The notes beneath the pieces are model-generated. The model had not been told where the DNA came from and searched no databases. It saw nothing but the letters and a program-made list of their open reading frames with translations. Source: Chromatiales bacterium (GTDB lineage: Bacteria; Pseudomonadota; Gammaproteobacteria; Granulosicoccales; Granulosicoccaceae). Taken from it: 35,958 nt of DNA. The stretch spans positions 1 to 35,958 of the forward strand of contig JAHDHK010000007.1 in the NCBI GenBank assembly GCA_020631335.1, written 5' to 3'. The position numbers and the translations under genes were made by a program. This document shows positions 2,947-34,157 of the stretch, piece by piece (position 1 is the first letter of the stretch; every line of letters starts with the position of its first letter).

Positions 2947-3420
2947 TTATTTTGCAAGCGCGCAGTAGCGGGCGTCGAGCAGATCCAGTAAGTCATCAGG
3001 GGCAAGTTCGAGTTGTAACCCGCGCTTGCCTCCACTGATAAAAATTGACGGGTATTCCGCGGCACGCTGATCGATAAGGGTAATGTATTTTTGCTTTTGT
3101 CCCAATGGACTGATACCCCCGATCACATAACCGGTGCTGCGTTGAGCCTGTTGAGGGTCTGCCATTACTGCTTTGCGGCCATTACAGGCGGCTGCCAGTT
3201 TTTTAAGGTCCAGCTGATCGGTCACAGCCACCAGTGCCACCGCCGGGCTGCGCGTGTTGCCGTCGATGATACCTATGAGTGTTTTAAAAACCTGGCCTGT
3301 GTCCTGCCCGAGTGCTTTCGCTGCATGCTCGCCGAAGTGACGGAGTTCTTCGCCGGCGTCGTAGTGTCTGATCTGATAGTCAACCTTGTGCCGGTCGAGT
3401 AATTTGATTGCCGGTGTCAT
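2947..3420 (-). CDS. ybaK: Cys-tRNA(Pro)/Cys-tRNA(Cys) deacylase, YbaK/EbsC family
   Basis: A single-domain trans-editing factor of 157 residues that hydrolyses Cys mischarged on tRNA(Pro), a product of prolyl-tRNA synthetase misactivation. Family features visible are the N-terminal TPAIKLLDRHKVDYQIRHYD, the segment QVFKTLIGIIDG holding the catalytic-type Lys, the central VALVAVTDQLDLKKLAAACN, and the C-terminal GYVIGGISPLGQKQ and IFISGGKRGLQLELAPDDLL. Length matches the usual 155-160 residues. It is convergent with the carboxypeptidase gene and has no operon partner. Confidence 0.93.
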   Translation of the reverse strand: MTPAIKLLDRHKVDYQIRHYDAGEELRHFGEHAAKALGQDTGQVFKTLIGIIDGNTRSPAVALVAVTDQLDLKKLAAACNGRKAVMADPQQAQRSTGYVIGGISPLGQKQKYITLIDQRAAEYPSIFISGGKRGLQLELAPDDLLDLLDARYCALAK

Positions 3421-31427: not shown

Positions 31428-33152
31428 TCAGGCGTTTGTATGTTGCTGCCACCAGGATTCTGCTGACGGTTTAACTTCCTTGCCGTGAAAACGTGCGAGC
31501 TTGCCGGTGGGTGCCAGTGCTTCTTTATAAAAGAATTCCGGCAGGTCATCGTCATCAACCAGGAATCCGGCTTGTTGATTAAATTCGTTTTCAAGTTTCA
31601 GTGCTTCGGTGCCAAGCTGCTGATAAAAATCCGGCGTTAATTGCGTGCCGTGTGCATCGTTCAGCGCATTCACCATAAAATCTATCTGCTCGTTGGTGAC
31701 TGATCTTCCGAAGATGCACAGACCCAGTGAGTCGGCTGCTGCGGTCAGTACCTGTGCTTCAAGGCTGGCGTGCACCAACTCTTCCACTTCCTTGCCTTCG
31801 CATTCGTAGGTAGGCAGATTGCCAGCGGTGTGGTCAGCCCCCTGTGCGGTCATCATCATCGTGATACCGGTGACCTCTATCACTCTCGGGTCGTAGGCGC
31901 TGATCGTTTGTTTTTTGATCACCGGCACACGCTCGATACCATAGTGTTCACCGACGCGTGCGGCGCCCTGTGCGATGATTTTGCCCAGGTCACTGCCGGT
32001 GCGCATTTCATCGCACATCTTTTCCATAAAGGCAGCATCACCGAATTCACCGTGACCGGCATCCATTAACACCCCGAGCGTGCCACCGAGTTCGATGGTA
32101 TCGACACCGAGATCATTGGCGTGCCAGTTAACCCGTGCCAGATCATCCGGGTCTTTCAGGCCACAGTTGGTACCGACCAGTCCTATCGTTTCATACTCTA
32201 TTGGCGAGACGACTTCGTTACCGTCTTCGTCAGCGTAAACGTTGCTGCACTGAATAAGACAGCCGGGCATACAGGCGTGGGTTGTCTCGCCTCCTCTGGC
32301 TATATTTTGTTCTCGCAGGTAGTCGCCACTTAGTTTGTAGGTTTCTTTGCTGGTATCGGCGGCACGCCCGCCGGTAAAGTTTCTAACCGGAATTCCGCCG
32401 AGCTGATTGATAACATCTGACATCATCGCTGTGCCGGTTTTGGCAAAGTTGTCGATAGCGGGTTCAGCTTTCAACATTTTGTTGTATTCGCGCACCGCCC
32501 CCATTAGTTTCTTGCGCTCATGGAAGGAGGGCATTTTGTGTAGATCTACAACAATGGCTTTGACTTTCTTGCTACCCATGACGGCACCGACACCACCCCG
32601 GGCACTGAGGCGCGAGGGTCGTAAATCCACATCGCTAAACGATATTCCAGCCAACAGCCCCTGATACTCGCCTACCGGCCCGCAGAGTCCGATACTGCAT
32701 TTTCTACCGTAGACCTCGTGCAGTTTTTCGGCAGTGTCAAAGTTGCCCATGCCCAGATAAGCCTCTGCAGGTGCAAAATCAATCGATCCGTCCTTCTTGA
32801 AGTGAATAATGACCCATTCATCTGATGCGTTGTGCAGGGTAAATCCGGCAAGCTCAAGTTGCCCGAGGGCAAAACCGAATGTTCCGCCTGAATTGGCTTC
32901 TTTAATACCACCTGTCAATGGGCTTTTACAGCCGACACTGGTGCGATTGGCATTGGAAAAATTACTGCCGGCAAAAGGACCTGCGGAAAAAATCAACGGG
33001 TTTTGCGGGGACAGAGGATCGACATCAGCCACTCCCTGATCAAGTAGTGTGCGAGCGATAAGATGCCGGCCGGCACGGATGATATCTTCGCCGTGCAGTG
33101 CTTCTTTTTTGATACTTTGATCGCTTAGATCAATATGGCAGTAGGTTCTCAT
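31428..33152 (-). CDS. Aldehyde ferredoxin oxidoreductase-family tungsto/molybdopterin enzyme
   Basis: A 574-residue cytosolic protein of the AOR family, enzymes that hold a bis-pyranopterin tungsten (sometimes molybdenum) cofactor and a [4Fe-4S] cluster and oxidise aldehydes to acids with ferredoxin-type acceptors. Visible are the N-terminal NPLIFSAGPFAGS and the cofactor-domain RLSARGGVGAVMGSKKVKAI. Cys294, Cys298 and Cys302 in ACMPGCLIQC and Cys479 in DSLGLCIF are the likely cluster ligands, and QGADHTAGNLP follows the family pattern. Cysteine spacing is C-x3-C-x3-C instead of C-x2-C-x3-C of archaeal AOR. The ATG at 33152 has AAGGAG eight bases upstream, so an upstream frame start at 33176 is rejected. 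No iron-sulfur partner subunit or cofactor gene is adjacent. Confidence 0.9.
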   Translation of the reverse strand: MRTYCHIDLSDQSIKKEALHGEDIIRAGRHLIARTLLDQGVADVDPLSPQNPLIFSAGPFAGSNFSNANRTSVGCKSPLTGGIKEANSGGTFGFALGQLELAGFTLHNASDEWVIIHFKKDGSIDFAPAEAYLGMGNFDTAEKLHEVYGRKCSIGLCGPVGEYQGLLAGISFSDVDLRPSRLSARGGVGAVMGSKKVKAIVVDLHKMPSFHERKKLMGAVREYNKMLKAEPAIDNFAKTGTAMMSDVINQLGGIPVRNFTGGRAADTSKETYKLSGDYLREQNIARGGETTHACMPGCLIQCSNVYADEDGNEVVSPIEYETIGLVGTNCGLKDPDDLARVNWHANDLGVDTIELGGTLGVLMDAGHGEFGDAAFMEKMCDEMRTGSDLGKIIAQGAARVGEHYGIERVPVIKKQTISAYDPRVIEVTGITMMMTAQGADHTAGNLPTYECEGKEVEELVHASLEAQVLTAAADSLGLCIFGRSVTNEQIDFMVNALNDAHGTQLTPDFYQQLGTEALKLENEFNQQAGFLVDDDDLPEFFYKEALAPTGKLARFHGKEVKPSAESWWQQHTNA

Positions 33153-34015: not shown

Positions 34016-34102
34016 CTAGTCTGCGTCTACAGACAGATTATGATCGTGCGCGGGTGAACGTAATACATGAAAAATGAAAGCAATAATTAAACAGGCGTAC
34101 AT
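34016..34102 (-). CDS. 28-codon micro-ORF (hydrophobic leader or small membrane peptide)
   Basis: ATG at 34102 follows a clear Shine-Dalgarno (TTTAGGAGAGACCCC) and opens a 28-residue frame: MYACLIIAFIFHVLRSPAHD then HNLSVDAD. The first 14 residues are hydrophobic and could span or insert into the membrane; the rest is polar. It is the first reading frame after the operator-flanked promoter at 34119-34157, upstream of the beta-barrel gene. It could be a regulatory leader peptide or a small protein. The support is ribosome-binding site, promoter and order only; no homolog is known to me. Confidence 0.45.
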   Translation of the reverse strand: MYACLIIAFIFHVLRSPAHDHNLSVDAD

Positions 34103-34118: not shown

Positions 34119-34157
34119 TTGTCATGACACTATAATGCATGTATCGTGTCATGACAA
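34119..34157 (-). promoter_or_regulatory. Sigma70-type promoter flanked by duplicate palindromic operators
   Basis: On the reverse strand a -35 TTGTCA (34152-34157), a 17-bp spacer and a -10 TATAGT (34129-34134) give a near-consensus promoter. Perfect 12-bp arms TTGTCATGACAC (34119-34130) and GTGTCATGACAA (34146-34157) surround a 15-bp centre, and each arm contains the 10-bp palindrome TGTCATGACA. One copy covers the -35, the other the -10 and start region, the layout of a repressor-blocked promoter. It points at the micro-ORF, the beta-barrel gene and AOR. A forward TATAAT is also present at 34131-34136 but has no -35. Confidence 0.7.

Follow-up and report, generated by a model that had tools for sequence, protein, structure and literature searches.

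Twin palindromes over an AOR-family promoter mark a genus-wide set of secreted and glycan-related genes, probably under a clade-specific repressor, in Granulosicoccaceae

Throughout one genus of the Granulosicoccaceae, secreted and glycan-related genes form a regulon that is marked by the palindrome TGTCATGACA. This regulon was overlooked in a preliminary description of one locus, and the single-promoter interpretation given there was therefore too narrow. Our preferred reading (probability roughly 0.78) is that a clade-specific repressor blocks RNA polymerase at a cell-surface and glycan regulon, among whose targets the AOR operon is the most conserved. What was computed is where the sites lie, how well they are conserved, how near they are to promoters and which classes of genes they precede.

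Genomes and nomenclature

The window, i.e. the whole stretch of DNA that was analysed, comprised 35,958 nt of contig JAHDHK010000007.1 (G000:C92:1-35958) from a Granulosicoccaceae MAG with a draft genome of 5.58 Mb. Its relatives in the named genome collection were Granulosicoccaceae MAGs and the Bugula neritina symbiont AB1-2. Genomes are labelled with G-numbers (G001, G017 and so on) and loci with L-numbers (L057, L194 and so on).

Twin palindromes and promoter geometry

The features of the locus are listed in Table 1. The reverse strand reads TTGTCATGACACGATACATGCATTATAGTGTCATGACA, that is TTGTCA, 17 bp and TATAGT: the near-consensus promoter proposed in the preliminary description is present, sigma70-like, and carries 10 of the 12 consensus bases. 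Likewise, the two palindromes reported as identical were found to be exact copies of TGTCATGACA, with both their centres and their starts 27 bp apart.

Table 1. Positions of the promoter elements, palindromes and downstream genes in the window
Feature	Position	Strand	Remarks
-35 hexamer TTGTCA	34152..34157	-	same hexamer in nearly all orthologues
Distal operator TGTCATGACA	34147..34156	no strand	shares 5 of 6 bases with the -35; core GTCATGAC
-10 hexamer TATAGT	34129..34134	-	TATAGT, TATATT, TATTAT, TATGAT or TATTGT in orthologues, same 17-bp spacing
Proximal operator TGTCATGACA	34120..34129	no strand	from the last -10 base across the expected start; invariant stretch TGTCATGAC
Micro-ORF, 28 aa, MYACLIIAFIFHVLRSPAHDHNLSVDAD	34016..34102	-	single hydrophobic segment; AGGAG upstream
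Small outer-membrane beta-barrel, 186 aa	33315..33875	-	signal segment; 10 predicted strands
AOR-family protein (aldehyde:ferredoxin oxidoreductase), 574 aa from ATG	31428..33152	-	Pfam and structure matches

The window has no further copy, and tolerating one mismatch added none; the count of one-mismatch matches (2 against 1.74 expected) is unremarkable, yet both are exact and lie 27 bp apart. Across the whole genome (5.58 Mb), nine copies were counted against two for the reversed control, and the genome-wide search for pairs returned two close pairs against none for the control. Promoter-like matches in the region were not above chance (2 found, 2.9 expected), so the case for the promoter and operators rests on conservation. 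No match to Rfam was obtained, so that a known RNA element was not seen.

The palindromes had been said to cover both the -35 and the -10. The distal copy does overlap the -35, whereas the proximal copy begins at the final T of the -10 and thus spans about -7 to +3 rather than the -10 itself. Palindromes in these positions, across most of the -35, the last base of the -10 and the start site, are placed as the operators of a repressor acting by steric block at a sigma70 promoter.

Conservation of the operators

Each of the 14 genomes of the genus has an AOR orthologue, and orthologues also occur in other genera. Both operators were present in 15 of the 15 genomes holding the region: 12 genus genomes directly, two others (G001, G002) in which the region is split between contigs, and the sister-genus genome G017 (the distal copy of G010 being CGTCATGACG). 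In an alignment of 14 promoters, little was invariant apart from eight bases of the distal core, nine proximal bases and the ATG, and mean column conservation was 0.97 in the operators against 0.67 in the other ungapped columns. The palindromes were thus conserved in orthologous upstream regions, where their absence had been named as grounds for refutation. A third palindrome lies 31-32 bp upstream in at least five genomes (G003, G004, G005, G006, G007, G012; some copies with base changes). As judged from these comparisons of relatives, conservation clearly lifts the putative twin-operator promoter above chance. Adjoining the distal operator, the motif CG.TAA (34130-34146) was nearly invariant across the AOR promoters, and these bases may belong to a -10 on the forward strand.

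The spacing had been considered suited to cooperative repression, which our results contradict. A distance of 27 bp corresponds to 2.57 helical turns and would thus place the dimers on nearly opposite faces of the DNA. Orthologues had spacings of 24, 25, 27, 28 or 29 bp, and pairs at other loci 15-48 bp; helical phasing was slight (phase resultant R = 0.20 over 50 operator pairs), and the constant spacing near whole turns of a lambda-type phased cooperative pair was not found. In 14 of the 15 orthologues, all but G010, a 17-bp spacer could be read after a TTGTCA -35 (the spacers of G001 and G002 were read straight from the printed sequence). Because the operator spacing varies while the 17-bp promoter spacer is kept, the design rule appears to be overlap with the promoter and not helical phase.

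Genes downstream of the promoter

The micro-ORF, the outer-membrane barrel and the AOR gene that the promoter was said to face all lie downstream of it. The intergenic gaps in this run (140 and 163 bp) allow internal promoters, so the three-gene operon is only putative.

Orthologues of the micro-ORF (n=14, 24-31 aa) share the motif M..CL.[IV]AF.F.VLR[SA]PAHD. Over 20 codons, pS was 0.85 and pN 0.12 (pN/pS 0.14), a pattern of substitution that suggests a translated gene rather than a free leader sequence. Among AOR loci, the micro-ORF occurs only together with the operators. A wider microprotein family (22-31 aa, M..CL..AF.F...R.PA[HY]D) includes diverged paralogues beyond the AOR operon (L235 about 3254-3325, L236, L237); one of these paralogues has an amtB-like ammonium transporter gene on one side and a peptidyl-prolyl isomerase-like gene on the other, both named from sequence only.

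The barrel had no Pfam or NCBIfam match. Thirteen barrel sequences were aligned. An AlphaFold2 model (pLDDT 84.6) gave weak fold matches to the small porins KdgM, NanC and OmpW, to which the predicted barrel may be similar. The AOR protein carries both domains of its family (Pfam AFOR_N 2e-51, AFOR_C 3e-60) and matches solved AORs, with 1aor as the best match (E 1.6e-55). Like the tungsten AORs, of which 1aor is the nearest solved relative, it thus has both AOR domains; unlike them, it has an outer-membrane barrel and a microprotein as partners, and its tungsten cofactor and aldehyde oxidation are putative.

In other genera, the AOR loci lack the barrel, the microprotein and the operators, so these three appear to have joined the AOR gene in this clade. 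The AOR orthologue of other genera was seen directly after glcD, glcE and glcF (L057 1553-7713) or near their homologues (L080), a neighbourhood hinting at a role for the AOR in glycolate or aldehyde metabolism.

Genus-wide distribution of the sites

In the 14 genomes of the genus, 180 sites of TGTCATGACA were counted (5-27 per genome), against 42 for the reversed control. When a TWW prefix was included (both strands), the genus held 114 sites against 6 for the control and G017 held 7 against 0, while 33 other genomes of the family together held 28 against 10. Among 370 gammaproteobacterial genomes, no other one had more than two copies of the flanked form WWWTGTCATGACAWWW, compared with four here. 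Among the lineages searched, such enrichment appears confined to this clade, no other lineage with it having been found.

Of the 146 sites in the fetched loci, 120 (82%) were noncoding, where 21% would be expected (p about 3e-55). A/T-rich sequence flanks the site on either side, and the operator is roughly WWWTGTCATGACAWWW. A second perfect core within 60 bp was present in 16 of 74 regulon promoters, against 0.09 expected. The variant CGTCATGACA was rejected as an independent operator (89 genome-wide against 71 for the control); it is credible only beside a perfect site.

A TATAAT-like hexamer ended at the first base of the site in 59% of 59 sites, compared with about 5-10% at most other offsets. 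The orientation-specificity of this TATA excess was not clear in single-gene promoters (p 0.33), and part of it is therefore the A/T flank of the operator itself. Regulon promoters with a single site had weak -35 elements.

The same site stands ahead of related genes, in excess over the control. Secreted-like products (assigned by a simple hydrophobicity rule) were encoded by 65 of 87 downstream genes (those within 160 bp) against 9 of 63 neighbours reading away (p 7e-14), and GWGW repeats were found in 46 of the 87 against 2 of the 63. The Pfam families among the targets included CBM_10, CBM9_1, GH12, GT87, SASA esterases, polysaccharide-synthesis enzymes such as Polysacc_synt_2, EamA transporters, and N-formylglutamate amidohydrolase with glutamine amidotransferase. 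The recurrent neighbours of sites were a GT87-type gene (nine genomes) and the N-formylglutamate amidohydrolase/amidotransferase pair (six genomes). Many secreted proteins with (D)GDGWGW(E/D)N repeats were also observed (L101, L108, L112, L138, L165 and others), mostly without Pfam match and some with weak CBM_10.

Search for the regulator

As the preliminary description had stated, no regulator gene adjoins the AOR locus, in this genome or in its relatives. An autoregulated regulator was sought at about 130 site loci in 15 genomes, and no recurrent regulator gene was found; in the fetched neighbourhoods, no GntR gene was linked to the sites and no MarR gene was seen by them. UTRA (HutC) genes were present in 43 of 48 genomes of the family, with and without the regulon, and their single-copy orthology was ambiguous; one genome with 17 sites had a single UTRA gene, adjoining an oxidoreductase-like gene.

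Upstream of a LacI-type gene (L194 around 2952, G007; named from sequence) lies the longer palindrome ACCGATGTCATGACATCGGT, with the decamer inside it. This gene was rejected as the regulator: ACCGATGTCATGACATCGGT is a different palindrome and was seen once.

Comparison with known operators

The GntR family often controls sugar-related genes. The dre-sites of its members NagR and DasR resemble the present operator in being short contiguous palindromes with a half-site G-T-C beside the dyad. The crystallised NagR site is GTGGTCTAGACCAC (PMC4333415), and the same paper remarks that a T is frequent in place of G at -5; the crystallised site shares G-4, T-3 and C-2 with TGTCATGACA, that is three of the five half-site bases (half-site TGTCA). 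In contrast, the centre of TGTCATGACA is AT instead of TA, and the outer bases are unlike. As a lead only, and by analogy, a GntR-type winged-helix protein would best fit the compact palindrome.

MarR/SlyA repressors bind palindromes of about 12 bp (TTG-N6-CAA) over promoters. The sites described here are also palindromes over a promoter; they differ in that no MarR gene was seen by them. FleQ, which controls surface and exopolysaccharide genes, recognises the box GTCA-N6-TGAC. Its half-sites GTCA/TGAC and its surface and exopolysaccharide targets are common to both systems, whereas the half-sites abut here, without the 6-bp spacer.

The operator and regulon had been presumed undescribed, and neither was found in the open-access literature searched; the one match joining GTCATGAC with operator and palindrome was a scrambled control oligo. 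As a phenomenon this is ordinary bacterial regulation; for the operator, regulon and operon as such, the open-access papers that were searched contained no earlier account.

Proposed mechanism and alternative explanations

We propose that a single DNA-binding protein, most likely a homodimeric repressor whose gene lies elsewhere in the genome, has TGTCATGACA and its A/T-rich flanks as its operator. At the AOR promoter, one dimer on the distal site would mask the -35 and a second, on the proximal site, would mask the last part of the -10 together with the start site; RNA polymerase would thereby be excluded until some signal releases the repressor. The microprotein, outer-membrane barrel and AOR genes would then be transcribed together. 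The same operator would control secreted or lipid-anchored proteins, often carbohydrate-binding, together with glycan-processing enzymes and envelope-polysaccharide genes; the putative sites are doubled at the AOR promoter and tripled in some relatives. Protein binding, repression in preference to activation, the signal, the co-transcription of the three genes and the family of the regulator are what we infer here. The interpretation in the preliminary description is partly supported: it was right in kind and wrong on phased cooperativity.

An addition to this mechanism would be a face-to-face double promoter, with one repressor locking both directions. A forward-strand match (TTGTCA-17-TATCGT, 34119-34147, 9 of 12 consensus bases) points toward a divergent BON/OmpA gene that is itself conserved, and the nearly invariant CG.TAA is part of the forward -10. 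However, that -10 is weak in orthologues, the forward -35 is lost in several and the BON/OmpA gene starts about 380 bp off, which makes the addition doubtful.

Replacing the repressor with an activator, whose distal-bound form would contact RNA polymerase at otherwise weak promoters, seems quite unlikely. The distal site does overlap the -35 of the AOR promoter, and the weak -35 elements of single-site regulon promoters suggest that activation may occur at some targets. Against this, the proximal site overlaps the -10 end and the start in all orthologues, where activators seldom work, and the -35 and -10 of the AOR promoter are themselves near-consensus.

Binding by an enhancer-binding protein of the sigma54 type, combining a PAS domain with a Fis-type HTH, was judged highly improbable and was rejected. 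The idea came from PAS-Sigma54-HTH_8 genes near TGTCATGACA in two other gammaproteobacterial families (G343, L246 456-1877; G176, L255 695-2050), and a full-length homologue lies near the only TWW-type site of G018; that site, however, falls inside a neighbouring coding sequence. No full-length homologue was found in the regulon-bearing genomes of the genus, the matches listed covering the shared AAA region only, and a search with the HTH as query in seven genomes of the genus and sister genus gave nothing above noise. In addition, the sites abut sigma70-like -10 boxes and not sigma54 promoters.

Chance palindromes kept by the common descent of very close genomes, for which the unremarkable one-mismatch count in the window might speak, are refuted: the operator cores are invariant although the AOR proteins are only 75-87% identical and the synonymous sites of the micro-ORF nearly saturated (pS 0.85), and the genus-wide site excess, noncoding bias and target bias likewise leave this explanation a negligible probability.

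Significance

With a clade-specific repressor as the preferred reading, a single promoter opens up, in an uncultured marine lineage, a regulon that can be tested across the genome. The operator (form TTATGTCATGACATAA) can serve as bait for the regulator, and the site list provides a set of co-controlled secreted proteins, most of them without assigned function. The locus is also an entry point to the roles of an AOR-family enzyme, a small barrel and a 24-31 aa microprotein in these bacteria. A bolder version, which we regard as unlikely, is that a clade-specific master repressor of an unrecognised family governs the extracellular proteins with which host- or alga-associated Granulosicoccaceae bind glycans. 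It would also link these proteins to a membrane microprotein, a barrel and a tungsten-type oxidoreductase acting together. If that were true, the three proteins may handle aldehydes from plant or algal polymers.
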